NCBI GenBank assembly: GCA_030040425.1
Contig: JASHTS010000011.1
Coordinates: 1 to 51,925, forward strand
DNA from: Acidobacteriaceae bacterium
GTDB lineage: Bacteria > Acidobacteriota > Terriglobia > Terriglobales > Acidobacteriaceae
Direction of reading: 5' to 3'
DNA length: 51,925 nucleotides
The notes beneath the pieces are model-generated. The model was not told the origin of the DNA and did no database searches. It saw only the letters and a program-made list of their open reading frames with translations. Each line of letters starts with the position of its first letter. Within the stretch, counting starts at the first letter, position 1. Position numbers and translations under genes: made by a program. This document shows, in pieces, positions 30,701 to 47,422 of this stretch.

Positions 30701-30817
30701 GAACGCCAACGCCACAACCCCGCTCCAGCGCGCCAATCGTTTTGGCGTTGAAGTCTCCCGCCGGCAGGTGCGCCGGGCGGGGCCATTCCTCGCAGGAGAT
30801 GGGAGGCTCAGCAACAT
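27782..30817 (-). CDS. Large polysaccharide export protein, Wza-like with multiple SLBB domains
   Basis: 1,011 residues from ATG 30817; GTG 30844 is an alternative. An N-terminal signal/anchor (~31-53) precedes a ~270-residue low-complexity and helical region absent from small Wza proteins. The Poly_export domain follows (GPDYVLGPGDSLTIDLWGG ... VDRAGRVLLPD), then repeated SLBB domains, recognisable by VYVVGDVQRPGGYDI, YLEGHVARPGRLAY, TVLGEVLRPGNYPM, TIQGQVKFPGGYGF and LVTGQVYNATALTF. E. coli Wza has 379 residues; this type resembles the long SLBB exporters of Bacteroidota and Acidobacteriota. It forms the periplasm-spanning/outer-membrane exit of the polymer. First gene of the exopolysaccharide operon; a TGACA array lies 50 bp upstream. 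Confidence 0.88.
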   Translation of the reverse strand: MLLSLPSPARNGPARRTCRRETSTPKRLARWSGVVALAFSAWIARGTVAHSQAPTATGDWGAAASGAGQAGNAMGRQVTPDGATSGTSQSSATVAPALTISSSQIVEILEQNPDLMVELKSLVAERLTEQGVETSADEISDGKFYSEIQANAKLRAGIAAYLRARGYLAGDESQNGEASAAGNDASMAWQTPGLTDGDFADALRETGAAQANGLTMGRLQSDESALALPANVSAGYTVNRAATAGGLRTRNEAANSSTEAPKVLREAAPYNLQSMRDLYTQIPESTVPLRRFGSDVFVERDAPAAARGISGRDTPLDVPLGPDYVLGPGDSLTIDLWGGVTQSITRTVDRAGRVLLPDSAPLAVAGLTLERAQGLIESALKRQYRNAQCAVTALGLRSVRVYVVGDVQRPGGYDISSLATPLSALYAAGGPTSTGSLRTLLHYRGRQLVETVDLYDFLLHGIRKGSERFESGDTLLVPPAGAQAAVSGAVKRPAIYELKGSETTLDAVIADAGGLTASAAPGRVRVERIGADHKRETVRVDLAEDPPGEEPGADFAVQDGDRITVEPILPYSAGVVYLEGHVARPGRLAYHDGMRLSDALESYRDLLPEPAAHGELVRLVAPDLHAETIAFNVPDVLIGNADVNLQPFDTIRVYGRYEIDAPKVTVLGEVLRPGNYPMSAGMTAAQLVRMAGGFKRDAMLESADLTSYDVDNGKGVAGNVLTVRIGAAVSGADATADVALKVGDTLMVHQMTGWNEIGQSVTIQGQVKFPGGYGFENGERLSSVLMRAGGFLPDAYPMGAVLVREQVKELEQKSRDELIRQIETSSAAARLSPTVSGANAGAALETIKAQQDEVIAELKSHPPAGRMVIQITADINRWAGTAADIELRRGDVVTIPKRPGFVLVTGQVYNATALTFTPDKTAGWYLSHAGGASATADRKEIFIIRANGSVVGRRSGGWLGGEVLETRLNPGDVVVVPQKIIGASALWRNLLVTGQLAASVALTAGVTAAAL

Positions 30818-30866
30818 GGAGTTTCCGTTCTTCGCTCTCGACACTACGGAATCCGCACCTGCGGCG

Positions 30867-30904
30867 TGTCATATGCGCGTCAGGAAATTGTCATTCCTTT
30901 GTTA
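30867..30904 (-). promoter_or_regulatory. Array A: four 11-bp phased TGACA repeats upstream of the EPS operon
   Basis: On the plus strand TGTCA 30867, CGTCA 30878, TGTCA 30889 and TGTTA 30900 are exactly 11 bp apart; read toward the EPS operon they are TAACA, TGACA, TGACG, TGACA. The gene-proximal unit ends 50 bp before ATG 30817. The spacing is that of tandem OmpR/PhoB-family binding sites. Confidence 0.7.
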
Positions 30905-30960
30905 GGTGGCTCGAAATTTTCGCGCGATCTACAGTCGGCGCGCCCAAGGGCAGGGAAGTC

Positions 30961-32298
30961 TCACGAGCGCTCTTCCCTTTGCCTTCGCCAGCGTGCCGCT
31001 GCCCACAAATAGCGCAGTCCTTCCACGACGTGAAAGCGCAGCCGGTAGAGCACAAAGCGAAGCTGCGCGTGTGCGCGCCGCAATCTTGCCGCCGGCGGTT
31101 CGCCCTCTGCCGCAATGGTGATGGCCGGAGGGAGCCGGAGCGGCAGCAGTTGTTCGCGCAGCGTGCGCTTTGCGGGAATTCCAACCATCGCGAGTTCCTG
31201 TTGCAGGAGCAGGCAGAGCTTGTAGCCTGGTGAGTTGCTCAGCAGGGAGCGGTATCCGTGCATATCCACCCAGAGCCGCACGCCGTCGGGCAGCCGGTCC
31301 GCGCTCCAGCACCGCAGCTCCTCGGGGGCAAAAGCGCCAAAGGCGGCTTCGATCAACCGCGTTGCCACACCCAGCCCCAGATACTTCCGCGGCGAATCGC
31401 CGGCCATCGATTGCAATTGCCGCCAAAATTCCGTGTCATCGCCGCGCGCGATCACGTGCCGGCGAAACTCCAGCAGGTGCGACCCGCGCGCCATGTCATT
31501 ACACATATGCTTGAACACATGCATTCCCTGCCACAAGAAGAGTTCCACGGCCGGAAGCACCGGCATCTCCCTGCCGCGGAAATCGCGCATCTCCCTGCGC
31601 GCAAGAAGCGAGCGTTCGCCCTCTCCGCTCGCCTCGAGATGCAGCTCCACGCTTTTACGCACGTGCGGCTTATACAGGTCCTTGAGGGAGCGCGCCGGCG
31701 GATGAGTGGTCTTGAACTCCCACGTGCGGCCGCTGATCGCCTGCCGATGATAGCCTTTCGCTTCCAGAATGCGCCGCGCCTCTTCTGCGTCATTTTCCGC
31801 AACCAGGTAATCCAGATCGGACTGCAACCGCAATTCGAGCTTCGGCGCCGAGTGCGGCCACAGCGAGAATCCCTTCAGCAGGGCATAGGTGAGATTGTTC
31901 CGCTGGAACTCGGCCTCAAGCGCATCTGCCTCGGCGATCAACGCCCGCGTGCGTTCGGTGTTGTCGGCAAGATTTTGTTTGAGCCGCGCGTAAGCCCCGG
32001 CCGGCAGCCAGCGAATCGCGCCCAGCTCGTTCACTCGATCGAAGAAGTAAAGAGCAAGGCCACTCGAGTCGAGCCAGCGCAGCAGCCGCTTCCACTCTGT
32101 GCCGGAAAGTTCCTGAAGCGGCGCGCACTGCGCGGGCGGCGGATCGCAGAAGCACCGGAGTGCGGCCGCGCATGCGGCCATTTCTCTTGAGGGCTTCCCC
32201 TGCGCCGTTGTCCAGCGTGCTGCGGCATACGGGGGAGTTTCCGCGAGTTGATCGTCTCCGTACATCCAGCGTGTGCCTGCGGAGAAACCGCGATTCAC
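30961..32298 (-). CDS. Nucleotidyltransferase-fold protein (NTP_transf_5 type)
   Basis: 445 residues from GTG 32298 (an internal ATG at residue 12 is possible). The central region shows the pattern of the uncharacterised nucleotidyltransferase family found in polysaccharide and peptide-modification loci: YALLKGFSLWPHSAPKLELR, then QSDLDYLV with the acidic D-x-D pair that would bind metal, and VELHLEASGEGE plus FLWQGMHVFKH. Members are predicted to transfer a nucleotide or modify a carrier; no member I know of has a settled role. It lies just upstream of the EPS operon on the same strand, with a phased TGACA array 32 bp before its start. An HprK-like kinase gene, often found near such proteins, is 2.6 kb away. 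Confidence 0.75.
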   Translation of the reverse strand: MNRGFSAGTRWMYGDDQLAETPPYAAARWTTAQGKPSREMAACAAALRCFCDPPPAQCAPLQELSGTEWKRLLRWLDSSGLALYFFDRVNELGAIRWLPAGAYARLKQNLADNTERTRALIAEADALEAEFQRNNLTYALLKGFSLWPHSAPKLELRLQSDLDYLVAENDAEEARRILEAKGYHRQAISGRTWEFKTTHPPARSLKDLYKPHVRKSVELHLEASGEGERSLLARREMRDFRGREMPVLPAVELFLWQGMHVFKHMCNDMARGSHLLEFRRHVIARGDDTEFWRQLQSMAGDSPRKYLGLGVATRLIEAAFGAFAPEELRCWSADRLPDGVRLWVDMHGYRSLLSNSPGYKLCLLLQQELAMVGIPAKRTLREQLLPLRLPPAITIAAEGEPPAARLRRAHAQLRFVLYRLRFHVVEGLRYLWAAARWRRQREERS

Positions 32299-32329
32299 TC
32301 TTGAGTGTTGCCCATCCGCAACTTCCGGT

Positions 32330-32356
32330 TGTCACGCGGTTGTCAGACGATTGTCA
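32330..32356 (-). promoter_or_regulatory. Array B: three perfect 11-bp phased TGACA repeats before the nucleotidyltransferase gene
   Basis: Plus-strand TGTCA at 32330, 32341 and 32352, exactly 11 bp apart; toward the gene each unit reads TGACAA plus five bases. The proximal unit is 32 bp from GTG 32298. This is the most regular array in the window. Confidence 0.75.
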
Positions 32357-32423
32357 CGGTTTCTTGCAACTCCGGATCTTCCGTTCCCCCGCCGCTCGAG
32401 CCATACGCCGCCGTGAACGCTCA

Positions 32424-32461
32424 TGACATTCCCTTGACAAAGAGTTGACCTTCGGGCGACA
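32424..32461 (+). promoter_or_regulatory. Array C: four 11-bp phased TGACA repeats before the outer-membrane barrel gene
   Basis: TGACA 32424, TGACA 32435, TGACC 32446 and CGACA 32457, spaced 11 bp, reading toward the plus-strand gene at 32495. The unit at 32435 includes a perfect TTGACA, so the array overlaps or replaces a -35 element. Confidence 0.72.
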
Positions 32462-32494
32462 CGCTCAACCGTGCATGTGGTTATTGTTCAATGC

Positions 32495-33559
32495 ATGGCC
32501 GACTTCACCACCATTTCTTTCGCTCCCTCGGCGAAGACGAAACTTGTCGCCGTTTCTGTCGTCCTCGTTTCGTGTTTCGGGCTCGGGGCCGCCGCGCAGA
32601 ACTCCCCGCTCCTCTCCGGCGGCGCTGCGTTTCTCACCAGCACGCGCGGCGGCAAAACCAGCTATCAGCCCATCATCGAGCCGCTGCTGGCCGCTCCTCT
32701 CGGCGGCCACTTTCTTGTTGAATCGCGCGCAGCGCTTCTTGAGGAAATCTCTCCCAACACCGGCGGCCAATCGGGCTACGACCATTTCCACTACATTGCG
32801 GTCACTTATCTCCAGGGAGACATCCTCGCCTCGCCCCACGCCACGCTCGTTGCGGGCAGCTTTCTGCTTCCGTTTAACACATACAACGAGCGGCTCTCGC
32901 CCGTGTGGATCGGCAACTTCCAGGACAGTCCCGCAGTTGAAAGCCTGGGACTTCTCTCCACGTTCACGGGCGTCGGCGGCGAATTGCGTGGCTCCGCCGT
33001 CTCCACCAGCGATTACTCCCTCGATTACACGGCGTGGTTCTCTGCGCGCAGCTCCAATGAGCAGTTCAGCTCCGAGCGCTCCTCCGGTGGGCGCCTCGCT
33101 CTTTACCTGCCTGAGATGCGCCTTGAAGGCGGCCTGTCTTACGACCGATCTCTCCAAAACACGGAGGAAAATTTCTATGGCGCGCACCTCTGGTGGGAAA
33201 CCAAGGGCGCGGCGTTTCGTTTTCGCTCCGAGTTCGCGCGCAGCCATCACGTGCAGGGCTACTGGGCCGAGGCGGACCTTCGCACGCTCATGTTCGGCGG
33301 CGCCGATAGCTGGCGCGGCCGTTTTGAGCCACTCTTCCGCATGCAGCAGACTTTTCGCCGCGACACCGTGGTGAGCGACGGCCTTCCACTCGTCAACACG
33401 CAGCGCGCCGATTTCGGCCTCGACTACAACCTGCCGCACAACACGCGCATTCTTACCAGCTACTCCCGCTCCTTTTCTCCATCAGGCAACGAGAACATCT
33501 GGGAAACCGGCATCGTCTATCGCCTGCTCTTTCCCGCCTGGAAAGGCAAGAGCCAGTAA
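32495..33559 (+). CDS. Outer-membrane beta-barrel-like protein of unknown function
   Basis: 354 residues from ATG 32495 (GTG 32471 is an alternative). A signal peptide with core KTKLVAVSVVLVSCFGLGAAAQ is followed by alternating polar/hydrophobic strands with frequent aromatic ends (YHYIAVTYL-like, SYDRSLQN, RSEFARSHHVQGYWAEADLR, GLDYNLPHNTRILTSYSRSFS) and a C-terminus ending ...ETGIVYRLLF. This fits a ~14-16-strand outer-membrane barrel. No TonB box or known porin signature is visible. Array C lies just upstream, and the gene diverges from the nucleotidyltransferase gene. It converges with the MFS gene with only 19 bp between stops. Confidence 0.65.
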   Translation: MADFTTISFAPSAKTKLVAVSVVLVSCFGLGAAAQNSPLLSGGAAFLTSTRGGKTSYQPIIEPLLAAPLGGHFLVESRAALLEEISPNTGGQSGYDHFHYIAVTYLQGDILASPHATLVAGSFLLPFNTYNERLSPVWIGNFQDSPAVESLGLLSTFTGVGGELRGSAVSTSDYSLDYTAWFSARSSNEQFSSERSSGGRLALYLPEMRLEGGLSYDRSLQNTEENFYGAHLWWETKGAAFRFRSEFARSHHVQGYWAEADLRTLMFGGADSWRGRFEPLFRMQQTFRRDTVVSDGLPLVNTQRADFGLDYNLPHNTRILTSYSRSFSPSGNENIWETGIVYRLLFPAWKGKSQ

Positions 33560-33578
33560 TCCTGGTTCGATTCGCAGC

Positions 33579-34901
33579 TCAAGCGCCCGCTGCATCCCGC
33601 GCTCCCCGAGTTTCCTTGCTGGGGACCAGAAGCCAGAACAGCAGCGAGACGCCCGCGGCCGTCAACGCCAGACCCAGCAGCACCGGCGGATAACCGAAGC
33701 GCGCAAACAACGCGCCGGCCAGCGCCGTGGCTCCTGCTCCGCTCAGCGCGCTCACAAACATGGTCATCGCCGAAGCGGAGCTGCGCTCGCCGTCCGGCGT
33801 CTCGTTCATCAGCAGGTTGTAGAGTCCGGGTGAGCTCGCCCATTGCGCCGCCGCAAAGGTCATGTAGAGCGCCACGGCCAGGGCCGGGCTGCGCGCGCCG
33901 GCCAGCCAGCCCAGCACCAGCGCTGCGGCCATCTGCGTCAGCACGATTCCGTTCAACAATCCGGTTTTGCGAAAGAGATACGGCGTCGCCAGGCCCATAA
34001 GCAACTGCACCACCTGCACCGCGGTAAACACCAGTCCGATGCTGGCCATGGGCACGCGCAGATCGCGCTCCAGATACACGTTCGCAAATGGCGTAAACGC
34101 GGCCAACACTGCAGCCCACAGCCCCATCAGGGGCAGAAAGCGAAGCAGGAAAGGGTGCAGATTCCGAAACGGCCACGCACGCCTGCTCTCTGTCTTGCGA
34201 TCCTCGTTTTCCGGCTCGGGCACGTGCAGGCGCAGCGCGGGAATGAGCCCCGCAAATGCGATGGCGCAGGATGCAAGGAGGATCAGCCGCTTTACCTCTG
34301 CGGGTTGCATGGCGATACCGGCCCTGGCCAGCCATTCGCGCAGGTAACCGCACACGATGCCGCCCACCATGCTCGTCCCTACGCTCACGGAGTAGATCAG
34401 GCTGAATCCCGCGGTGCGGTTCTCCTCGCTCGTCAGCCTTGCCACTGCGGGAAGGTAGCACACCGCCCATCCGCTCATGACCACGCCGGAGAGAAACGCC
34501 AACACGATCTGCGCCGGCTCCCACATCCATCCTGCCCGCGCTGCGCTCAATAGAGCCGCACCCGCAAACACCGCCATCAGAAGCGGCCGCACGCCGAACC
34601 TGCGCGCGATTCCGCCGGCGGGCAAAGTGCCCGCCACCGAGCCCAGCGTGAGCGCGCCGCCGATCAGGCCAATGGCGCGATCGTTGAAGCCGTGGTCCAG
34701 AAGGTAGAGATTGAAGAGAAAAAAGTAGACCGAATACCCGGCGTCGTAAAAGAAGGCTGCCGAAAAAAACAGCCAATAGCCGCGGCTGAAGTTTCTCTCT
34801 TTGAGCCACGGCAGCGGATCGCGCCAGAACGAGAGCTCTCGCCGCTGCCCGGGCGCGGCCAGAACCGGGTCGCTCGCCGGTTCGACGACCGGCTCGATCA
34901 C
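33579..34901 (-). CDS. MFS transporter
   Basis: 440 residues from GTG 34901, selected because GGAGG precedes it and it overlaps the HprK-like stop (GTGA, 34898-34901); the frame extends further to GTG 34943. Twelve hydrophobic helices are evident. Between helices 2 and 3 is GGIARRFGVRPLL, the MFS loop motif. Helix 1 is preceded by LPWLKERNFSRGYWLFF. Substrate unknown. As third gene after a TonB receptor and an HprK-like kinase it probably handles the inner-membrane step for a ligand taken up by the receptor. Confidence 0.82.
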   Translation of the reverse strand: MIEPVVEPASDPVLAAPGQRRELSFWRDPLPWLKERNFSRGYWLFFSAAFFYDAGYSVYFFLFNLYLLDHGFNDRAIGLIGGALTLGSVAGTLPAGGIARRFGVRPLLMAVFAGAALLSAARAGWMWEPAQIVLAFLSGVVMSGWAVCYLPAVARLTSEENRTAGFSLIYSVSVGTSMVGGIVCGYLREWLARAGIAMQPAEVKRLILLASCAIAFAGLIPALRLHVPEPENEDRKTESRRAWPFRNLHPFLLRFLPLMGLWAAVLAAFTPFANVYLERDLRVPMASIGLVFTAVQVVQLLMGLATPYLFRKTGLLNGIVLTQMAAALVLGWLAGARSPALAVALYMTFAAAQWASSPGLYNLLMNETPDGERSSASAMTMFVSALSGAGATALAGALFARFGYPPVLLGLALTAAGVSLLFWLLVPSKETRGARDAAGA

Positions 34902-35905
34902 CGGCCTTCCTCCACCAGCTTCCGCAGCCGCTCCACCGCCCACTCCAGGCTCGTATAGCGAAGCTCCAGCACTCCCAGCGTCAGCAGTTGCTCAACGGCG
35001 GCATACTGCGAGGCTCGCGAGACGGGGGATCCCATCAGCACCTGGCGCATGAACAGCCTGGCCACATCTTTGCGGTAGGGAATTAGCGTGTGCTCTCCGC
35101 CTGTTCGGCGATTGAGGAATACCACGAATTCCGCCCGCGCCGTCTGCGCGCGCGCAATTTGCGGCGCGGCGCTCATGGGAAATTCAATGGACGGCTTGCC
35201 CGACGCGCGCGGCGTCAATCCCAGTCCCCGGAGTTCCGGAAACAGTTCGCGCGCATGCGGCCGGAAGCGCACCTTGTAACAATTGCCGGTGATCATGCGC
35301 TCCGTCCCGCCGTTGAGCAGGAAGCTTGCGTCGTCGCTGACAAAGGTCCAACCGCTGCGCGCGCACGCGTAGGAGAGCGTCGACTTGCCCGCGCCCGAAT
35401 CGCCGCACAGCAGCACGCCCCGCCCCTGCAGCGCCACGCAACCGGCGTGCACAACCGTCGCGTAGTTCGTGGCAATGCAGAATTCCGGGAACCCCAGCAG
35501 GTAATAGAGCAGGTAGAGCGGATCCGCCACCGCTGCTTCCGAAACCTTGATGGAGGCCGTGCAGCGGTCGAGATCCACGATGCTGAAGTTGTCCTTGTCG
35601 GCAACCGACATCAGCAGCGGCTGCATCAATTCGTAGCCCGGCTCCGGCGGGCACTCGTCCGACTCGCCCGGCGCCACGTGCACATCCACGGCAATCGGGT
35701 CGGTGTCGCGCAAGGCGGCAAAATTGCCCCAGAGCTTTCTATACAAATCCAGCGCCGCGGCGGAGTTCGACCGCACCGCGGCCGGAAATCCATAAGGATA
35801 AAACGTCTGCTCAAAGGAAAAATCCGGCAAATCCAGGTCATGCGGGGGAGTCTCCACCCGCTGCGATGTACTGCACGCGGATTCAATATCTTCGATCGTC
35901 AACAT
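34898..35905 (-). CDS. HPr kinase/phosphorylase-like protein (HprK-related)
   Basis: 335 residues from ATG 35905, with GGAGG 5 nt upstream; the longer frame overlaps the TonB receptor gene. The C-terminal domain has VVHAGCVAL with H153, a Walker A loop LLCGDSGAGKST (K174) and SDDASFLL (D191/D192), the order found in HPr kinase C-terminal domains. The N-terminal ~120 residues do not resemble HprK. HprK-related kinases occur in exosortase, lasso-peptide and other peptide/polysaccharide loci, often with nucleotidyltransferase-fold proteins like the one at 30961. No HPr or PqqD-like partner gene is seen here. Target unknown. Sits between TonB receptor and MFS genes in one coupled operon. Confidence 0.8.
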   Translation of the reverse strand: MLTIEDIESACSTSQRVETPPHDLDLPDFSFEQTFYPYGFPAAVRSNSAAALDLYRKLWGNFAALRDTDPIAVDVHVAPGESDECPPEPGYELMQPLLMSVADKDNFSIVDLDRCTASIKVSEAAVADPLYLLYYLLGFPEFCIATNYATVVHAGCVALQGRGVLLCGDSGAGKSTLSYACARSGWTFVSDDASFLLNGGTERMITGNCYKVRFRPHARELFPELRGLGLTPRASGKPSIEFPMSAAPQIARAQTARAEFVVFLNRRTGGEHTLIPYRKDVARLFMRQVLMGSPVSRASQYAAVEQLLTLGVLELRYTSLEWAVERLRKLVEEGR

Positions 35906-35957
35906 CCTTGCCTCCGCGAGTACCCTCTGCCCGTGCGCGTTCTTGTTTCTTCGCAAG

Positions 35958-38900
35958 CTAGAAAACGTACTTCGCCGCGAACTGGATAATGCGCGGGTTC
36001 GCCACCGTACTCGTGATCTTTCCAAAGCTCGAGCTCGCCGTCGGATTCACGAGCGTGGGATCGGTGTAACCCAGATATTGGCCTGGGTTCCCGAACTGCG
36101 GCGTGTTGGTCAGGTTGAAGAACTCGGTCCGAAAGCGGAAGCTGCTCGCCTCCCGCACGGGGAATGCCCGTTCTACCGCCAGATCGAAGTTGTGCTGGCC
36201 CGGTGCGCGTGTGAAGCCCACGCCGCTGTCGCCGAAATCCTGGTCGGCCAGGCTGGTCCCATAAGGCGCCTCGGGCGCGCGTGTAAATGCATTGGGGTCG
36301 AGGTAACCGTTGAGCACCCGCGAGTACATGGAGCCGTGGGTATGCGGATTGCTTCCCGTCGCCTCCGCGCGCACTTCGCCGGGAATCAGACCGTAGACCG
36401 AGCCCGCGTTTTCGTCGAAGATGCTCAAAGGAACTCCCGACTGCACCACAGCCACACCGGAGACCAGCCAGTTTGCGAGAACCATCCGCGGCATCGCCGG
36501 CAGCGCCTCCAGCTTCGGCGAAGACCAGGTAAAATTGACCACCGCCCGCTGGTCGCGGTCTGTGCCCGCCGGTCCGTACGACGATCGCCGCAGGTCGAGC
36601 TGATTGTTGGTGGGCAACTGCAACTCGTAGATATCGGTGCCCACTTCGCCGTTCACTTCGTCCAGGTTCTTCGCCCACGTATAACTCGCCTGCAGCTCGA
36701 AGTTGTGCTGCATGCGCCGCGTCACGCTGGCCTGCAGGGCGTTGTAATTGGCAAGGAAGACGGAGTCGGTTAGCAGCGATCCTTCGCTGATTCCCTGCCA
36801 CGGCATCCGGTTCGGCACATTGTCGATGGAGTTCGAGGTCTGCCCGAAGACCGGATTCTGCGGGCTTCCGAGCAGCGCCTGGTCGAATTCAACCTGACCT
36901 GACCGGTTCCAGGAGTGTGTGCCCACATAGCCCGCGTCGAGCAGGTATCCGCGCCCCAGCGCGCACTCGATGTTCAGGTTGTATTCCTCCGTGGTTCCGT
37001 CCTTCATGTTGGGATTCGTCGCTTCAATGAACGGTGACGAATCGGGCGTGAGCGGCGTGAAGATGGGATAGCTCGAGTAGGGAAGCACCGTGGGCACGAA
37101 GGGGCTTTGCAGCGTGGCCGCCGCATTGGGACTGCCGTCGATGATCTGCAGGGTGGCAAATGGCGCTTGCGACACGGTCTGTTCCGCCACGTTGCCGGAG
37201 TGCCTGTCGTAGTACACTCCGTACCCGCCGTGCACAACGAGCACAGGCCGGTTCGTCGGTTGCCACACAAATCCCAGCCGCGGCGAAACATCGCCAAATG
37301 GCGTCTTATAGAGTCCCGGAAACGATGTCTTGGCCATGCCCGCGGGAACCATGCCGGCATAGTTCGAGGGCAAGGTGTATCCGCTGTACGTTCCCGCAGC
37401 TGGAACCGGCCCCATGGTTGCGAGATCCGGATCGAAGTTCGAAAATCTTCCGTGGATTTCAATGGGAGCGCCAAATATCTCGTAGCGCAGGCCGGCATTG
37501 AAAGTGAGCCGGGGCGTGAGCTTGAGGTCGTCTTGCGCGAAGATGTCAAAGTCCGTGTACCGCTCGTCTCTGCGGAAGATGCCGCCGCCCGCCTGGCTGT
37601 TGCTCACGTTGCTCAGCCCCAGCGGGCTGTTGTTCTCTGCCGCGCTCTCGCCCAGCAGAAAATCGTCGAATGTGTCGATCTCGAGCAAACCATCGGTGTT
37701 GAATGGCTCGTTCACGTCAACTTCGTGACGCTTCACCTCGCCGCCGAAACGCAGGTTATGGCGCCCCCGCGTCAGCGCCAGCGTGTCCTGCCCGATGAAC
37801 GAGTTGGTCACCTCCCACAGCGACGGAGTCCCTGCATCGCCGATCGTGAATCCACCCACCGTTAATCCTGGAGCGTTCGCAGTGGGCGAAGCCAGTCCCG
37901 TTGGCGTTCCTTCGCCGATCTCCGCCGCTGAAAGCGGATTGGCAACCACCGCGGCTCCATCGAACCGCGTGTAGCCGAAGCGCGCTATGTTCACCAGGTT
38001 CGGGCTCAGTACATGTGTATCCGCCAGCACCAGCATCGTGCTTCGGATCAGCTGATTGGTGCCCCATCCCGGCACGTTAGCCGCGTTGGGCGAGAACGGC
38101 TCCATCGTAGGCGCGCGCGAATAAAAAAACCGCTCCGCAAGCGTGTTCTTTTGCGTCAGCACCTGGTCCAGGTTCACGCTGAACTGGTCCTCGCGATAGT
38201 GCGCGGGAATCGCATACGTCGACTGGCCCAGCGGGAACTGATCCGAGGCGTCCGGTCCCGTATTCGGCAGCGCCGCCTGCGGGTTCGGCACGGCCAACTG
38301 CCCGCCGGGCAACTTCGCATTCAGAATGGCCAGCGCCACCGGGTTGATGTTCGATCCGTCGCATGCTACCTGCGTTCCGCCCGCCTGCGTCAGGTAGCCG
38401 GTCGCCGGCTGCCCCTGGCTGTCGAGGTGGCCCGCCGGGCAGAACTGCGCGCCCAGCGACGCCGCAGACCGGTCGGCAGTCAGCAGCGGGAGAATCGCTG
38501 TCTGCTCGTCGCCCAAACCGTTCACCGCCGTCAATCCCTGGTAGGAGACAAAGAAGAAGTCCCGGTCGTGCAGCATGGGCCCGCCCAGCGCGGCGCCGAA
38601 CTGGTTCTGCTTCAGGTCCGGCTTCGGCTGCCCGTCGAGATTCGAAAAGAAATCGCTCGCATTGAACACGTTGTTACGCACAAATTCCCACGCGCTTCCA
38701 TGAAAAGCATTTGTGCCCGCCTTGCTGATCAGGTCTACATTCGCGCCCGATCCGCGGCCATACGCAGCGTCGTAGTTCGCCGTTTGCACGCGGAACTCCT
38801 GGATCGTATCCGGCGCCGGAATCGCTGTGCCCGGGTCATTCTCGGCGTTCGCGGCTGAGTTTTCGGCGAGATTATTCGCATCCACGCCGTTGAACTGGAT

Positions 38901-39482
38901 GTTGTTCGAGAGCGGCGTAGCGCCGTCAGAGGCCACGTTCTCCGTCCCGTTGCCCAAAGCTGTCGCATTCGGCAAATCCACCACCACGCCCGGCGAGAGA
39001 CCCAGGACCTGCGTGTAATTCCGGTTGGAGAGCGGCAACATCACGATCGCGGTCTCATCCACCAGCCCGCCGAGCGTGGAGCTCTCGAGCGACGCCTCTT
39101 CCGCGCTCGCCTTCACCTGCACGCTCTGCGCCAGCGTGGCGACTGCGAGGCGCACATTCACAGATGTGGTCTCGCTGGCCGTCACCTGGATCGCGTTGGA
39201 TTCGCTCTCGGCAAAACCCTGCGCTTTTACTTTCACTACGTAACTTCCCGGCAGCAGCAGCGGAATCTCGAAGGCGCCCTCCGAGTTCGCCTGCGCCATC
39301 CGCTCTTCGTGCGTGGCCAGGCTCACTGCCGTCACTTCGGCGCCGGAAACGCTCTTGCTTTGCGGGTCGTACACGTTGCCTGAAATCGCGCCGGTTCCCG
39401 GAGTTTGCCCGTACCCCGCCATCGCCAGCAACAGGATTGCTGCCGGCAACAAGGACAAGGCTCGCGTCGATGCAGTCTTCAT
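35958..39482 (-). CDS. Oar-like TonB-dependent receptor with carboxypeptidase-regulatory domain
   Basis: 1,174 residues from ATG 39482, with GAGGGA 6 nt upstream; the frame to 39647 crosses a repeat array. Signal peptide 1-25. An N-terminal carboxypeptidase-regulatory-like domain (GAISGNVYDPQSKSVSGAEV) is followed by the plug (DTIQEFRVQTANYDAAYGRG, GTNAFHGSAWEFVRNN) and a long barrel ending in ...KYVF. This architecture is the abundant TonB receptor class of Acidobacteriota. It moves large ligands through the outer membrane; the ligand is unknown. It is transcribed with the HprK-like kinase (52 bp later) and MFS genes. Array D lies upstream in a shared divergent region with the cytochrome operon. 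Confidence 0.9.
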   Translation of the reverse strand: MKTASTRALSLLPAAILLLAMAGYGQTPGTGAISGNVYDPQSKSVSGAEVTAVSLATHEERMAQANSEGAFEIPLLLPGSYVVKVKAQGFAESESNAIQVTASETTSVNVRLAVATLAQSVQVKASAEEASLESSTLGGLVDETAIVMLPLSNRNYTQVLGLSPGVVVDLPNATALGNGTENVASDGATPLSNNIQFNGVDANNLAENSAANAENDPGTAIPAPDTIQEFRVQTANYDAAYGRGSGANVDLISKAGTNAFHGSAWEFVRNNVFNASDFFSNLDGQPKPDLKQNQFGAALGGPMLHDRDFFFVSYQGLTAVNGLGDEQTAILPLLTADRSAASLGAQFCPAGHLDSQGQPATGYLTQAGGTQVACDGSNINPVALAILNAKLPGGQLAVPNPQAALPNTGPDASDQFPLGQSTYAIPAHYREDQFSVNLDQVLTQKNTLAERFFYSRAPTMEPFSPNAANVPGWGTNQLIRSTMLVLADTHVLSPNLVNIARFGYTRFDGAAVVANPLSAAEIGEGTPTGLASPTANAPGLTVGGFTIGDAGTPSLWEVTNSFIGQDTLALTRGRHNLRFGGEVKRHEVDVNEPFNTDGLLEIDTFDDFLLGESAAENNSPLGLSNVSNSQAGGGIFRRDERYTDFDIFAQDDLKLTPRLTFNAGLRYEIFGAPIEIHGRFSNFDPDLATMGPVPAAGTYSGYTLPSNYAGMVPAGMAKTSFPGLYKTPFGDVSPRLGFVWQPTNRPVLVVHGGYGVYYDRHSGNVAEQTVSQAPFATLQIIDGSPNAAATLQSPFVPTVLPYSSYPIFTPLTPDSSPFIEATNPNMKDGTTEEYNLNIECALGRGYLLDAGYVGTHSWNRSGQVEFDQALLGSPQNPVFGQTSNSIDNVPNRMPWQGISEGSLLTDSVFLANYNALQASVTRRMQHNFELQASYTWAKNLDEVNGEVGTDIYELQLPTNNQLDLRRSSYGPAGTDRDQRAVVNFTWSSPKLEALPAMPRMVLANWLVSGVAVVQSGVPLSIFDENAGSVYGLIPGEVRAEATGSNPHTHGSMYSRVLNGYLDPNAFTRAPEAPYGTSLADQDFGDSGVGFTRAPGQHNFDLAVERAFPVREASSFRFRTEFFNLTNTPQFGNPGQYLGYTDPTLVNPTASSSFGKITSTVANPRIIQFAAKYVF

Positions 39483-39545
39483 ACGGCTTCCCTCGTGAAT
39501 TTCTCTTGCATTGGAGGGCAGTATGGAGACGTGCCGTGCGTGAGT

Positions 39546-39572
39546 TGTTACCGATTTGTCATTCCATTGTCG
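39546..39572 (-). promoter_or_regulatory. Array D: three 11-bp phased TGACA repeats before the TonB receptor gene
   Basis: Plus-strand TGTTA 39546, TGTCA 39557 and TGTCG 39568, 11 bp apart; toward the receptor gene they read CGACA, TGACA, TAACA. The proximal unit is 64 bp from ATG 39482. Confidence 0.68.
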
Positions 39573-39630
39573 CGATCTTCGCGTCGGCGAAATTCGCTCC
39601 CAGGCGCGCGCTGCAAGCGGCGGAAATCCG

Positions 39631-39668
39631 AGACAATCAGGTGACAAACTTCAGACGCTTTCGTGACA
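39631..39668 (+). promoter_or_regulatory. Array E: four 11-bp phased (T/A)GACA repeats before the cytochrome/CuA operon
   Basis: AGACA 39631, TGACA 39642, AGACG 39653 and TGACA 39664, each 11 bp apart, reading toward ATG 39759. It faces away from array D, which lies 59 bp to the left. Confidence 0.68.
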
Positions 39669-39758
39669 CATCGCTCTCCGATGCGCCTTAGCCTGTTGCC
39701 AATGCGGCGGCTTTCGAATTTCTCCGCGCCGCGCTCGTTTTCGTGTGAAAGGAAATCC

Positions 39759-40055
39759 ATGCAGCGGTTCAATGGACTGGCGGCGATGATCGTTCCGGCT
39801 CTTGCTGCATTGCCGCTGTTCGCGCTCGCGCCTCAGGACTCGCAACAACAACAGCATCTTCGGCCGCAGAGGTCTTCGGCCGCGGCCACTCCCGACCGCG
39901 GTCAGCAGGTGTTCGACCGGAACTGCTCCCGCTGCCACAACCCGCCTGAAGGTTTCTCGCCGCGCATTTCCGGCACTATTGCACTGCACATGCGCGTGCG
40001 CGCCAACCTCAGCGAAGAGGACTACAAAGCCCTCCTCCATTTCTTGAATCCCTGA
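39759..40055 (+). CDS. Small monohaem c-type cytochrome
   Basis: 98 residues from ATG 39759 (AAAGGA 6 nt upstream). A signal peptide of ~25 residues precedes a low-complexity Gln-rich stretch, then a CSRCH haem site (C56, C59, H60) and a likely distal Met, M78 in ALHMRVR. The folded part is only ~55 residues, short for a class I cytochrome. Periplasmic electron carrier. First gene of a co-directional group with the CuA protein and a second cytochrome. Confidence 0.8.
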   Translation: MQRFNGLAAMIVPALAALPLFALAPQDSQQQQHLRPQRSSAAATPDRGQQVFDRNCSRCHNPPEGFSPRISGTIALHMRVRANLSEEDYKALLHFLNP

Positions 40056-40101
40056 TCTTTTTGAACGCCTGATGTTTTTGAATACCTGATCTCTTTCAAG
40101 T
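40034..40101 (+). repeat. Four 17-bp imperfect tandem repeats across the cytochrome stop codon
   Basis: Units start at 40034, 40051, 40068 and 40085 with core CCTGATSTYTTTGAA. The first unit overlaps the coding end (..HFLNP), so the array looks like reiterated duplication of the gene's 3' tail. It fills most of the gap to the CuA-like gene. Confidence 0.7.
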
Positions 40102-40156
40102 CTTGCTTGACGCACTCGTCGCGCCTCTCGATTGAAAGCCTGCCCACGGAGAACCT

Positions 40157-40522
40157 ATGCCAGAGAGATTGCCGCTCAAAATGTTTTTCGCCTTCCTGCT
40201 CATCGCGCCCGTTTTGTCCGTTCGCCCTGTTCATGCCGCCGATGCCCCGCACCGCATTGAAATTACCGCTCGCCGATTTGCCTTTGATCCCGGTGAGATT
40301 ACCGTGAAAAGGGGCGAGCCCGTTGTCCTCGTGCTCAAAAGCGCCGACGTGGCGCACGGTCTTCGCTTTCGCGATCTGGACGTCGATGTGAAAGTGGGCG
40401 CGGGGGGCACGGCCGAGGTCTCTTTTACCCCGCAGAAAACGGGCGACTTCATCGGCCACTGCTCGGTCTTTTGCGGCTCCGGCCACGGCTCCATGACGGT
40501 GAAGCTCCACGTGGTGGATTAG
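40157..40522 (+). CDS. Soluble CuA-type cupredoxin (cytochrome oxidase subunit II-like domain)
   Basis: 121 residues; GGAGA precedes ATG 40157. Signal peptide ~1-27. The cupredoxin fold carries H67 in VAHGLRF and the ligand cluster C102, C106, H110, M113 in HCSVFCGSGHGSM, the spacing of a binuclear CuA centre (C-x3-C-x3-H-x2-M). The membrane helices of true oxidase subunit II are missing and no subunit I gene is nearby. Predicted soluble or loosely attached periplasmic electron carrier. It may act with the two flanking cytochromes. Confidence 0.85.
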   Translation: MPERLPLKMFFAFLLIAPVLSVRPVHAADAPHRIEITARRFAFDPGEITVKRGEPVVLVLKSADVAHGLRFRDLDVDVKVGAGGTAEVSFTPQKTGDFIGHCSVFCGSGHGSMTVKLHVVD

Positions 40523-40524
40523 GC

Positions 40525-40995
40525 ATGCGCGCGCTCGCCGGCTCTGCCGCCCTCTGCCTGTTGGCCGGCCTTCTGGGATGCAAAGCCACGCCTCCGGGAA
40601 GAACAGAGACCGCGGTCGTGTCCTTTGCCAAGCACCACGTCTTTGTCGGCAACAAAAAGGAGAAGAATCCGCTCCCCGACGATGCGGGCACCCTCGCCGA
40701 CGGCAAGGAAGCCTTTTCGCATTACTGCGTCGCCTGCCATGGTCTGGACGGTCAGAACACCGGCGTCCCGTTCGCCGATCACATCTCCCCGCCCATCCCC
40801 TCGCTCGCATCGCCGAACGTGCAGCGCTATACCGACGGCCAGTTGAAATGGATTCTCGACAACGGCATCTGGCCCTCCGGCATGCCCGGCTCCAAAGGAA
40901 CGCTCAGCGATGACGAGCTGTGGTCCATCGTCGTCTACCTGCGCCATCTTCCGCCCGCCGGCAGCCAGGGCGCGCCCGAGATGTACACGCATTGA
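40525..40995 (+). CDS. Cytochrome c lipoprotein
   Basis: 156 residues from ATG 40525, two bases after the CuA gene's stop. The signal peptide ends with a lipobox, LLGC (C19), predicting lipid attachment. The haem motif is CVACH (C68, C71, H72) and the sixth ligand probably M120 in SGMPGSK, followed by DDELWSIVVYLR, the usual C-terminal helix of class I cytochromes. The arrangement resembles cytochromes of alternative oxidases or reductases. Membrane-tethered electron carrier that may exchange electrons with the CuA protein. Confidence 0.87.
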   Translation: MRALAGSAALCLLAGLLGCKATPPGRTETAVVSFAKHHVFVGNKKEKNPLPDDAGTLADGKEAFSHYCVACHGLDGQNTGVPFADHISPPIPSLASPNVQRYTDGQLKWILDNGIWPSGMPGSKGTLSDDELWSIVVYLRHLPPAGSQGAPEMYTH

Positions 40996-41004
40996 AGGAT
41001 CGAT

Positions 41005-42309
41005 ATGCCGCCTGATACGCGCGCGTATGAAAGCTGTGATTCCGGCCATGCGACCGGTGGCGTTCTTCCCTTCCTCGCCGGCTTTTATTTCGCGTTCGGC
41101 TCATTCCTTCTCGTTTTGACGGTTCATCTGTTCGGAACGGACCCTCGGACCGGCACCGCAATCAACCTGGGCCTGGATTATCTTCTTTTGATGGCCGTCG
41201 GCTTTTGTACGCTGGGTCCGGCTCCCGTGCAATTCAGAGAGTTGGCGCGATCGGCGAGCGTACAATGGGCGCTTTTCTTTCTCGCATTCTCAGGCGTCAG
41301 CCTGGCGTGGAGCTGCACCGCTTCGATTTCGACATCCGCCGCTTATTGGTGTGCGATGGCCGCTGACGCCGCCATGGTGATGATGCTCGTCCGTGCAGTT
41401 TCGCTTGAGGACGTTTCCGTTTGTCTCATGAACGGTTATGTGTGGGGCGTCTGTGCAGTGGCGGCGGTCGCCTGGATCATGCCGGCGCAGTCGGATCTGC
41501 GCCTCGGCGACGAAGAGTTATTCGGAGCGAATTCTATCGGGTACATTTGCGGCCTCGCATTTTTCTTCGCTCAGTTCCTTATGCGGGAGAGGAAGGCGCG
41601 CATGGTTCTGCCCTCCGCACTGCTCGCAATTACGCTTCTGCGGTCGCTCAGCAAAACAACCCTTGTCGCCTTTATGGCGGGCCAGGGTTTTCTTCTGATC
41701 AGCGACAAAACCGTCAGCCGCAGGAGCAGGGCACTGATCGCACTGGCTGTCACGGCGGTTGTCGCGCTCTCGTGGGGTCTGCTGAATTCGTACTACGAAA
41801 TCTACACCGGCGCCGGCAATCAGTCATCGACATTGAGCGGCCGAATTGGCATCTGGGCGTACTTTTCGGCTGAGGCAATGCAACAGCCGTGGATCGGGCA
41901 CGGATTCGATTCCGTGTGGAAAGTGGTGCCCCCGTTTGGTCCCGATCAGTTCGAAGCGCCCCACGCGCACAACGAGCTGCTGCAGCAGTTCTACGCATAC
42001 GGCATGGTTGGAGTTGGCATGTTCCTGGGGATATATGGCAGCCTGTATCGGCAGATTCGCCGCCTGGCCAAAGGCCGTCTCAGAACGTTTCTGTTCGCCT
42101 TCCTGCTCTTTGTGCTTGTGCGCGGCTGCGCGGAGGCCGAACGATTCGATTTATCGCTACCCTTATGGGCGGTGGTGCTGTTCAGCCTTCTAATCGAGCA
42201 CGCCACCGTACCGCAACCGGTGCTGGCGCGCGACGGCCTCGCTCCCGGAATGGACGTCCTCGCACCTGCCTCCGGCACGGGACCGGCGGAAACGCCGACT
42301 AAGGCATAA
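41005..42309 (+). CDS. O-antigen ligase/polymerase-family membrane protein (Wzy/WaaL type)
   Basis: 434 residues; GAAGGA precedes ATG 41005. About ten to twelve hydrophobic helices, with the Wzy_C region in the second half: LSGRIGIWAYFSAEAMQQPW, IGHGFDSV and HAHNELLQQFYAYGMVG, a conserved H-x-H-N-x-x-L pattern of this family. It would polymerise or ligate the exopolysaccharide repeat units delivered by the flippase at 25-26 kb, which otherwise lacks a polymerase in the main operon. It starts 10 bp after the cytochrome lipoprotein stop, so it is probably transcribed with the electron-carrier genes. That grouping is unusual. Confidence 0.85.
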   Translation: MPPDTRAYESCDSGHATGGVLPFLAGFYFAFGSFLLVLTVHLFGTDPRTGTAINLGLDYLLLMAVGFCTLGPAPVQFRELARSASVQWALFFLAFSGVSLAWSCTASISTSAAYWCAMAADAAMVMMLVRAVSLEDVSVCLMNGYVWGVCAVAAVAWIMPAQSDLRLGDEELFGANSIGYICGLAFFFAQFLMRERKARMVLPSALLAITLLRSLSKTTLVAFMAGQGFLLISDKTVSRRSRALIALAVTAVVALSWGLLNSYYEIYTGAGNQSSTLSGRIGIWAYFSAEAMQQPWIGHGFDSVWKVVPPFGPDQFEAPHAHNELLQQFYAYGMVGVGMFLGIYGSLYRQIRRLAKGRLRTFLFAFLLFVLVRGCAEAERFDLSLPLWAVVLFSLLIEHATVPQPVLARDGLAPGMDVLAPASGTGPAETPTKA

Positions 42310-42312
42310 AAT

Positions 42313-42328
42313 TGTCATACGATTGTAA
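42313..42328 (-). promoter_or_regulatory. Array F: two 11-bp phased TGACA repeats before the response-regulator gene
   Basis: Plus-strand TGTCA 42313 and TGTAA 42324, 11 bp apart, 67 bp before ATG 42395. Only two units are clear, and they point away from the regulator gene, unlike the other arrays. Confidence 0.5.
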
Positions 42329-42394: not shown

Positions 42395-43132
42395 ATGATT
42401 CATGTGATGGAACCGGTTCCTGACGCTCGACCTGTATCAACGACCGCGGTCAATCTCGGCTCGATCCTTATTGTCGAAGACGATCCGCGCATGCAGAAGG
42501 TCCTGCGCCGCATCTTCTCCGCGGAGCACTACTCAGCCATCGTCGCCGGCGACGGCCAGACCGGCATCGAGCTCTTTCAGAGCGAGCGCCCGCTCGCCGT
42601 CGTCCTCGATCTCATCCTTCCGCACATCTCCGGACGCGAGCTCTGCCAGAAATTCAAGAGCCTCGCGCCTGACGTTCCCGTCGTCGTGCTCAGCGCCATC
42701 ACCGAAGTCGCCGATAAGGTCCTCCTTCTCGAGCTCGGCGCCGACGACTACGTCACCAAGCCGTTCAGCCCGCGGGAACTGACCGCGCGCGTGCAGGCGG
42801 CCATTCGCAGGCAGCGCAAGCCGGCCGCCCAAACCACCTATCGCTTCGCGGATTGCGAAGTCGACTTTCGCAAGATGACCGTCCGCCGCAATGGCGTCCC
42901 CGTCATCCTCACCGCCCACGAGTTCAAGCTCCTCAAATTCTTTACCGATAATGCCGAGCGTGTGCTCACCCGCGATGTGCTTTTGAATGAAGTCTGGGGC
43001 TACAACTTTTATCCCACCACGCGGACGGTAGATAATCAGATTCTCAAGCTACGCCAAAAGCTGGAGCCCGATCCGGCGAATCCAAAGCACCTGCTCACCA
43101 TCTACGGCGCAGGGTATAAATTCGTCCCGTGA
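42395..43132 (+). CDS. OmpR/PhoB-family response regulator
   Basis: 245 residues; ATG 42407 is an alternative start. Receiver domain ~22-135 with acidic pocket ILIVEDD (28-30), phospho-acceptor D72 in AVVLDLILP, and the conserved lysine in VTKPFSP. Winged-helix domain ~150-245 with LTAHEFKLLKFF, ERVLTRDVLLNEVWG and a recognition helix TRTVDNQILKLRQKL, close to the PhoB-type helix, ending GAGYKFVP. Regulators of this class bind 11-bp direct repeats, matching the arrays found nearby. Followed 75 bp later by its likely sensor kinase. Autoregulation via array F is possible. Confidence 0.9.
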   Translation: MIHVMEPVPDARPVSTTAVNLGSILIVEDDPRMQKVLRRIFSAEHYSAIVAGDGQTGIELFQSERPLAVVLDLILPHISGRELCQKFKSLAPDVPVVVLSAITEVADKVLLLELGADDYVTKPFSPRELTARVQAAIRRQRKPAAQTTYRFADCEVDFRKMTVRRNGVPVILTAHEFKLLKFFTDNAERVLTRDVLLNEVWGYNFYPTTRTVDNQILKLRQKLEPDPANPKHLLTIYGAGYKFVP

Positions 43133-43207
43133 TTCTCTCCCGGTTTTCCCGCTTTGCAGCCTGGCTGAGCCGCCGCGGTCGATGGTTCGCCGTGGGTGAG
43201 GCTTGAT

Positions 43208-46700: not shown

Positions 46701-47422
46701 TGAAAACCAGGCCCATCTGCCGGTTCCTGCTCGCGGCTCTCGCTGTCTCCTTTGGCGCCGCGCGCGCAGCGCAGCCGGTCCCTTCGGCCAGTACCGCCGA
46801 ACTGCGCCTGCGCCTCATCGCCTCGCAGCCCGCGAAACCCCGCGCCGTCCCTGCCGTCATCTGGCTCGAACCTCTTCCCGGAACGCCGGCTCTGCCCTTT
46901 ACGCCGCACGGCGAATACACCCTGCTCCAGAAGAACCGCATGTTCACTCCGCATCTGCAAGTGGTTCCTGTCGGCAGCGTGGTCGCGTTCCCCAACGCCG
47001 ATCCCTTCTTTCACAATGTCTTCTCGCTCTTTGACGGCAAGCGCTTCGACCTCGGTCTCTATGAAGCCGGCTCCAGCAAATCGGTCACCTTTTCGCGCGA
47101 GGGCGTCTCCTATATCTTCTGCAATATTCATCCGGAGATGAGCGCCGTCATCCTCACTCTGTCTACGCCGCTCTATTCGATTGCAGATCGAGCGAATTCC
47201 TTCGATCTCCGCGGCATTCCTCCCGGCGATTACCGTCTGCACTTCTGGATCGAGGGCGTCCCGCAGTCCGTGCTCTCCGGCCTTGACCGCCGTATCCATC
47301 TTCCCTCTCGCGCCGTGGATCTCGGCAGCGTCGAAGCACCCATCGCCGGCCCAGAAACCCCGGCGCCCCACAAGAATAAATTTGGTCAGCCCTACCCCGC
47401 CCAGGGAGATTCACTTTATTGA
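46700..47422 (+). CDS. Periplasmic blue-copper protein (cupredoxin)
   Basis: 240 residues; the start overlaps the previous stop (TGATG). Signal peptide 1-23. A cupredoxin core carries the type-1 copper set: H105 in PFFHNVF, C141, H144 and M147 in FCNIHPEM. The copper domain spans ~75-155 and is followed by a second beta domain (~165-210; IPPGDYRLHFWIEG), as in methylamine-utilization-type cupredoxins. It is the last gene of the regulator/kinase/porin operon. Likely role: electron shuttle or copper carrier in the periplasm. Confidence 0.85.
   Translation: MKTRPICRFLLAALAVSFGAARAAQPVPSASTAELRLRLIASQPAKPRAVPAVIWLEPLPGTPALPFTPHGEYTLLQKNRMFTPHLQVVPVGSVVAFPNADPFFHNVFSLFDGKRFDLGLYEAGSSKSVTFSREGVSYIFCNIHPEMSAVILTLSTPLYSIADRANSFDLRGIPPGDYRLHFWIEGVPQSVLSGLDRRIHLPSRAVDLGSVEAPIAGPETPAPHKNKFGQPYPAQGDSLY

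Follow-up and report, generated by a model that had tools for sequence, protein, structure and literature searches.

A locus with six phased TGACA arrays

The window (the whole 51,925-nucleotide stretch of contig JASHTS010000011.1, assembly GCA_030040425.1, from an Acidobacteriaceae bacterium) carries genes for polysaccharide export and assembly, outer-membrane proteins, cytochromes c and copper proteins next to the gene of an OmpR/PhoB-type response regulator, regulator 42395. Before these genes lie six arrays, A to F, of TGACA-like pentamers at 11-bp spacing, which an earlier note had proposed as the sites of a local regulon read by that regulator. Direct reading of the units together with a pair scan bears out the arrays as described there, with 2-4 pentamers each and 20 units in total; arrays A-E hold 3-4 units each and F only two. 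The strands of arrays and genes also agree with the earlier statement that the repeats of A-E are directed at the gene each precedes. Array F does lie before the regulator gene, as had been stated, but it is a box of two units only and is inverted relative to that gene.

Array A, 30861..30904, minus strand: four units, TAACA/TGACA/TGACG/TGACA, at 11-bp spacing, 5' of the SLBB polysaccharide-export gene
Array B, 32324..32356, minus strand: three exact TGACA units, 5' of the NTP_transf_5 gene
Array C, 32424..32467, plus strand: four units, TGACA/TGACA/TGACC/CGACA, 5' of the predicted outer-membrane barrel gene
Array D, 39540..39572, minus strand: three units, CGACA/TGACA/TAACA, 5' of the Oar-like TonB receptor/HprK-like/MFS genes
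Array E, 39631..39674, plus strand: four units, AGACA/TGACA/AGACG/TGACA, 5' of the cytochrome c/CuA/cytochrome c/Wzy_C genes
Box F, 42313..42328, minus strand: TTACA and TGACA as its two units, opposite in orientation to the regulator gene; gene-sense reading ATTGTCAtacgATTGTAATTTC

A two-unit scan of the whole 52 kb for TGACA-N6-TGACA with at most one mismatch found 11 pairs, all 11 of them inside A-F, so the earlier hand scan, which had reported no further array in the other gaps of the window, was complete at this stringency; the reversed core ACAGT, used as a control, gave no pair. With three units and at most two mismatches, the window has seven start positions, whereas 100 dinucleotide shuffles averaged 0.03 and 98 of them contained no match at all. 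Across the assembly (4.56 Mb, 75% complete) the same pattern has 12 matches, seven on this contig and five elsewhere, and its reversed form has none, which answers the concern that such arrays might be scattered at random through the genome. Adding the −10 element described below (≤3 mismatches) leaves eight matches, six on this contig and two elsewhere.

The genes behind arrays A-E are as follows.

27782..30844, minus strand: SLBB/Poly_export polysaccharide-export protein (Pfam), first after array A; longest open reading frame (ORF), true start probably further in
30961..32298, minus strand: NTP_transf_5 nucleotidyltransferase, after array B; longest ORF
32471..33559, plus strand: barrel362, a predicted outer-membrane barrel outside any Pfam family, after array C (structure model pLDDT 52)
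35958..39545, minus strand: Oar-like TonB-dependent receptor (OMP_b-brl_4), after array D; start within the ORF not fixed
39663..40995, plus strand: cytochrome c, CuA/COX2-type cupredoxin and cytochrome c (profile matches), after array E
41005..42309, plus strand: Wzy_C protein of the O-antigen ligase family (profile match), last of the array E string

Genes for Wzz, a Wzx-like protein, a glycosyltransferase and a sugar transferase lie 3' of the SLBB exporter, and the array D string comprises the receptor, an HprK-like kinase and an MFS protein. The CuA/COX2-type protein matches solved CuA domains with a best E of 1e-9.

Downstream of box F, the regulator heads a module of four genes.

42395..43132, plus strand: OmpR/PhoB-type response regulator (Pfam Response_reg and Trans_reg_C), the proposed array reader
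43196..45130, plus strand: histidine kinase, the proposed partner, with dCache_3, HAMP, HisKA and HATPase_c (profile matches)
45105..46700, plus strand: p531, with an N-terminal coiled coil and a predicted beta-barrel, porin-like, the usual third module gene (model pLDDT 62)
46700..47422, plus strand: p240, cupredoxin-like, with a conserved H and FCNIHxxM, the usual fourth module gene

Both regulator domains score above their curated cut-offs (PF00072, 92.9 bits; PF00486, 85.9 bits), and the Pfam scan found no sigma-54 interaction domain in this protein. The p531 model best matches the DcaP channel 6eus (TM-score by target 0.70); the structure models are of low to moderate confidence (pLDDT 62 for p531 and 52 for barrel362), and serve here only to indicate a barrel. 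The p240 protein lacks a Pfam match, and a profile comparison relates it weakly to a blue copper protein (E 1.7e-4). Among relatives the kinase homologue adjoins the regulator in 11/11 loci of the genus that have flanking sequence and in 15/16 family loci. Homologues of all four module genes stand together in the same 11/11 genus loci and in 10/16 family loci; the other six comprise three cut by the end of the region, two with regulator and kinase only, and one with the regulator only. The 4-kb contig of genome G021 falls outside the 11-locus count, and among the family loci the regulator gave no match in the G158 region, which ends within it.

The arrays share a promoter layout in relatives

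The 11-bp period is a property of the regulator loci at large. In 13 of them, exact TGACA pairs occur 40 times at a spacing of 11, 31 times at 22 and seven times at 33, and no further spacing in the range 5-44 occurs more than twice. When 57 arrays, chosen without regard to a −10 element and including four of the F type, were aligned on their last unit, the units fell at −33, −22 (TGACAAT), −11 and 0, and T, A and T stood out at +25, +26 and +30. The corresponding TAnnnT motif lies at offset +25 in 34/57 arrays and at +26 in 7/57, with at most two at each other offset from 8 to 69. Later sets gave 13 and 3 of 22 arrays, and 18 and 1 of 36, at these two offsets; these sets lean toward the −10, since their regions were chosen partly from promoter matches that include it. 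Conservation is highest for the unit at −22, which the array search itself partly favors. The relatives thus share one layout of 11-bp units, a gap of about 20 bp after the last unit, and a sigma70-like −10. By sequence, the repeat site occupies the −35 position at a fixed distance from the −10, which agrees in position with a class II activator site. The −10-like elements of the window are listed below.

30841..30846, minus strand: TAGTGT of array A, at offset +25 from the last unit
32304..32309, minus strand: AACACT of array B, 2/3 consensus bases at offset +25
32482..32487, plus strand: TATTGT of array C, with a transcription start inferred near 32494
39520..39525, minus strand: CATACT of array D, 2/3 consensus bases at offset +25
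39689..39694, plus strand: TAGCCT of array E

Because the longest ORFs of the array A and C genes begin upstream of the inferred transcription start, their true starts are probably further in. In the array C gene an in-frame ATG at 32495 sits at that start, so its mRNA may be leaderless. One array of the compared set, G000:C95:31813, is followed by neither a −10 nor a recognizable gene.

The arrays are conserved and reach beyond the locus

The genome with the closest regulator (G090, 93% identical) keeps all six arrays in the same gaps, with the units better kept than the surrounding sequence; array A is also kept in G087 and G083. Relatives at greater distance have a rearranged gene order, and the arrays still lie 5' of orthologues of the same genes: the CuA protein and the barrel in six genomes each (one CuA gene behind a cytochrome), the exporter and the nucleotidyltransferase in four each, the cytochrome in three and Oar in two. 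Arrays therefore recur at the orthologous loci, a check that the earlier note had proposed. Genes for DHBP synthase, PhyH, HprK-like and radical-SAM proteins follow arrays in three genomes each.

By hand count, 23/33 promoter matches in eight well-assembled genomes of the genus (G001, G002, G004, G005, G008, G009, G013 and G042) lie within 40 kb of the regulator. The rest are unlinked to it. Contig C18 of G005 carries, far from the regulator, a second nucleotidyltransferase/HprK/radical-SAM cluster with a promoter-type array; in G008 the regulator module stands without the other genes of the locus and three unlinked promoters occur (C7, C11 and C22), one of them before a copper-binding-domain protein related to p240. 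Such unlinked promoters argue for action in trans.

Several further genes follow arrays in relatives. The DHBP synthase genes (three genomes) are joined by one GTP cyclohydrolase II gene (L070:6905-7600 and L105:11025-11663), and in some species the regulon may therefore take in riboflavin genes; of these arrays, the second lacks a −10. Ferritin-like genes (L229:4063-5199 and L105:13511-14644, in G013 and G014) have an array upstream in two genomes, as do ClC channel genes (L220:3328-4770 and L224:3542-5059, in G001 and G008), where the arrays lack a −10 and are weak cases.

Beside the locus lies an exosortase gene of the EpsH family (47467-48453, minus strand; TIGR02602, 110.4 against a cut-off of 105.55), with a thioredoxin-like gene and a multicopper-oxidase gene as neighbors. 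No exosortase homologue was found in the compared stretches of the relatives' regulator loci, and an exosortase regulon was dropped as a candidate on that ground.

Arrays and regulator are distributed together

Across 80 genomes of the genus, array promoters (≤2 mismatches) occur in all 29 with the regulator (E≤1e-65; 113 matches), compared with 6/51 without it (seven matches; Fisher p 3e-16). Restricting the comparison to genomes at least 90% complete gives 16/16 with the regulator and 1/26 without. The six exceptions with a promoter and no regulator are G003, G022, G024, G086, G088 and G094, five of which are 65-88% complete; the array precedes a Wzy_C homologue in G003 and an exporter homologue in G086. 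Over the order (298 genomes; regulator E≤1e-60, promoter ≤1 mismatch) promoters were found in 128/168 genomes with the regulator and 3/130 without it (p 1e-43), so that 128 of the 131 promoter genomes carry the regulator and the exceptions are G086, G286 and G332. These matches span 32 genera, and none occurs in the 14 genomes of sister family f2. A reversed-pattern control gave three matches in the 80 genus genomes and none among the matches listed for the order. The order counts are per-genome tallies, in which 110 genomes without a regulator match are not itemized, and many of the compared genomes are fragmentary assemblies.

Exporter homologues in regulator-free genomes have no array in six usable upstream regions, nor do second exporter copies in regulator-bearing genomes in three; this comparison leaves out one 153-bp upstream region and the exporter region of G086, whose exporter homologue with an array and no regulator is a counter-example. 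On an rpoB tree of 36 genomes, the presence of the regulator changes seven times (six changes forced by supported branches), which yields six supported independent pairs. The arrays, their layout, their conservation and their co-distribution with the regulator are shown at the level of sequence.

Separately, promoter-like sequences with a TTGAC box and GCTAAGGT or GCTAGTGT occur at G016:C52:21752, G021:C291:2355 and G022:C116:787, two of them from regulator-free genomes; they may represent another conserved promoter, which would account for the exception G022.

An inverted box precedes the regulator gene

The inverted two-unit box, roughly AAATTGTCATnnnATTGTCATTT, lies 5' of 37/40 regulator genes examined (≤1 mismatch over both cores, at most 300 bp upstream), a set drawn from 20 of the 29 regulator-bearing genus genomes, 16 loci from 15 further family genomes and four named loci. 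A forward pair occurs in just one of the 37 box-bearing upstream regions. The box is missing at the regulator genes of KBS 83, G014 and G021; in G014 the sequence has stops before the start codon, and the regulator looks intact and merely lacks the box. No fixed −10 was found downstream of box F, where a weak A-rich signal appears near +44 to +49. A role for F as a divergent promoter was rejected: of the four F-type arrays in the layout alignment, three lack TAnnnT at the forward offset, the fourth (G004) having TAGTAT there.

Five far regulators (G039, G040, G032, G029 and G031) have no such box, the search there being a three-unit scan with two-unit boxes sought by eye. The recognition helix reads VDN(Q/H/V)(I/V)(L/W)KLR in the compared array genomes and the nearest named relatives, and VDVH, VDTH or VDAF in six far regulators, in whose compared regions no array occurs. 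This correlation points to regulator 42395 as the reader, though it is suggestive only, because it is confounded with relatedness. The closest named homologues of the regulator belong to Acidobacteriaceae (KBS 83, 70% identity; palsa metagenome-assembled genomes, 56%). Two metagenome-assembled records titled Bifidobacterium breve (L140, CALQBJ020000009.1) and Clostridium (L143, DGDR01000024.1) carry regulators 50% and 43% identical, and the first may be a mislabelled record or a mixed bin.

A proposed regulon and the alternatives to it

Array concentration, conservation and co-distribution support the earlier proposal of a local regulon with regulator 42395 as its reader. The present analysis extends that proposal with a −10 at fixed offset, an inverted box 5' of the regulator gene, unlinked targets in relatives and a family-wide reach. 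We consider it highly probable that arrays A-E are activator sites of the target promoters, that F is the regulator's own site, and that regulator 42395 reads them together with kinase 43196. Binding, phosphorylation, activation, the direction of control and the signal are parts of this model that we infer. The kinase would phosphorylate the regulator, whose winged-helix domains would then align head to tail on three or four TGACA units, one per helical turn. As the last unit ends 20 bp before the TAnnnT −10 and there is no proper −35 hexamer, the bound regulator may replace the −35 contact and recruit the main sigma factor, in a class II-like activation. The strings for polysaccharide export and assembly, the nucleotidyltransferase, the barrel, the TonB receptor/HprK-like/MFS proteins and the cytochrome/CuA/Wzy proteins would thereby be switched on jointly, and the two-unit inverted box F would provide autoregulation of the regulator gene, either activating or repressing.

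Several observations weigh against this model. At ≤1 mismatch, 40/168 regulator-bearing genomes of the order lack a promoter, and the 60-kb regulator region of G008 contains no three-unit array despite its regulator module. TAnnnT at +25 is absent from 23/57 arrays, and B and D of the window match it partly; G014, G021 and KBS 83 have arrays and no box F. Relatedness among the sampled species weakens the co-distribution: of just six supported independent pairs on the tree, arrays change in the same way as the regulator in 4.7, the opposite way in 0.0 and not at all in 1.3 (median p 0.06), and requiring at least two matches gives 4.3 pairs, 0.1 and 1.6 (median p 0.125). Nor does co-distribution amount to independent proof, because the arrays are in part inherited in one locus with the regulator and the barrel gene. 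Among the porins that the low-confidence barrel models resemble are the phosphate porins OprP/OprO, a faint phosphate hint.

That hint bears on the strongest alternative, that a different OmpR/PhoB-family regulator, such as a true PhoB, reads the arrays and 42395 is a mere neighbor. Pho boxes are likewise 11-nucleotide direct repeats, with the E. coli core CTGTCAT in the cited passages (PMC4415409), and related regulators exist in these genomes, for example G000:C142 at 36% identity. Yet in one comparison 10 of 12 genus genomes without the 42395 orthologue hold such a paralogue (35-38% identity), and genomes of the genus without the orthologue are mostly promoter-free (45/51). There are no phosphate genes among the array-adjacent proteins scanned, for which part of the genome-wide matches were annotated, and the inverted box stands at the gene of this very regulator in nearly every case. 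We regard this alternative as unlikely. PhoB proper was rejected as the identity of 42395, which misses the curated PhoB cut-off.

It is less likely still that the arrays mark a co-inherited polysaccharide island, linked to the regulator and serving something else. The locus does appear to be inherited as a block, since barrel362 homologues (E≤1e-20) occur in 26/29 genus genomes with the regulator and 0/51 without, but transcription units keep their arrays while gene order is shuffled, promoter-type arrays stand on contigs far from the regulator (G008:C7, C11 and C22; G005:C18), and matches extend across 32 genera of the order.

We consider it very improbable that TGACA is a sigma70 or extracytoplasmic function (ECF) sigma −35 element whose repetition is incidental. 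The sigma70 −35 consensus is TTGACA, with an optimal −35/−10 spacing of 17 bp, and a −10 does follow the arrays; TGACA is, however, separated from the −10 by 20 bp, and the last unit is not a TTGACA −35, because T precedes it in only 7/57 arrays, while it is the unit at −22, partly favored by the search, that is best conserved. On spacing and preceding base, TGACA as the −35 hexamer was rejected. Chance, compositional bias or a mobile or tandem repeat has a negligible probability given the shuffles and reversed controls and the better-kept units of G090; nothing in the window speaks for it, though look-alike TGACATC repeats exist in the far genome G031. There, on C7, C17 and C36, TGACATC-TGACATC-TGACATC is followed by a GATGTCAC-like inverse repeat, which resembles a dispersed repeat and not this promoter.

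What the regulon with 42395 as its reader would respond to is hinted at by its gene content, the mixture of matrix and electron-carrier genes suggesting a redox- or metal-linked matrix. In a broader form, which we put forward as a tentative and rather doubtful extension, the regulon would extend across the acidobacterial family and follow an orientation grammar, with targets marked by forward arrays of 3-4 units and the regulator by an inverted two-unit box, and in it one sensor kinase would couple the building of extracellular polysaccharide to periplasmic copper/heme electron transfer and so tie the matrix to redox or metal state. The electron-transfer set would comprise the CuA protein, the two cytochromes c, and the cupredoxin-like protein and porin of the regulator module.

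Acidobacteria are abundant in soil. Sequence alone here brings together a regulator, its proposed kinase, a grammar for the promoters and a list of candidate targets, and co-regulation is suggested for a barrel, a porin and copper proteins without known function. KBS 83 carries the locus and seems to be an isolate, as its record is not marked as a metagenome-assembled genome; control of matrix building in the family would thus be directly testable. Among the matches listed from open-licence papers, we found no description of this regulon, of any acidobacterial polysaccharide regulon, of exosortase regulation or of such repeats; the regulator is of a known kind (OmpR/PhoB family).

Comparison with known systems

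The closest likeness is to PhoB and the Pho box of E. coli, which share with the present system an OmpR-family regulator, 11-nucleotide direct repeats with a TGTCA-type core, and placement over the −35 region, which E. coli PhoB sites overlap in the cited passages (PMC3348028; PMC4415409). The differences lie in the targets seen here, which are polysaccharide, outer-membrane and redox genes and not phosphate genes, in the three or four units at each target, and in the direction of the repeats relative to the gene, which is opposite to that in E. coli. The proteins differ as well: regulator 42395 scores 190.6 bits against the NCBIfam PhoB cut-off of 296.2 (TIGR02154) and 138.3 against 471 for PRK10161, and the kinase here has a dCache_3 sensor domain.

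In Bacillus subtilis, PhoP binds several TT(A/T/C)ACA-like repeats that recur every 11 bp on the coding strand ahead of the −10, and contacts RNA polymerase. The arrays parallel this arrangement in period and position and differ from it in regulon, organism and unit sequence.

Two-component control of polysaccharide genes has precedents of other kinds. PrsK/PrsR of exosortase/PEP-CTERM loci is a polysaccharide-linked two-component regulon that was likewise recognized by pairing a DNA site with protein profiles (PMC1569441). PrsR is, in the cited portion of that work, an NtrC-type regulator with sigma-54 −24/−12 promoters, whereas the present regulator is OmpR-type with a sigma70-like −10; membership in the PrsK/PrsR system was rejected because regulator 42395 has no sigma-54 interaction domain and TAnnnT lies at a fixed offset. 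ChvG/ChvI of alphaproteobacteria controls envelope and exopolysaccharide genes, through ChvI sites of the form N-GCC-N8-GCC or TTGC-N3-GCAA in the passages cited (PMC9731502), unlike the TGACA arrays here. A cooperative PhoP dimer in Mycobacterium tuberculosis binds direct repeats of a 7-bp motif separated by a 4-bp spacer, as the cited section describes (PMC4832192). In direct-repeat binding this PhoP resembles the mode proposed for regulator 42395; the repeat sequence and the regulon differ.

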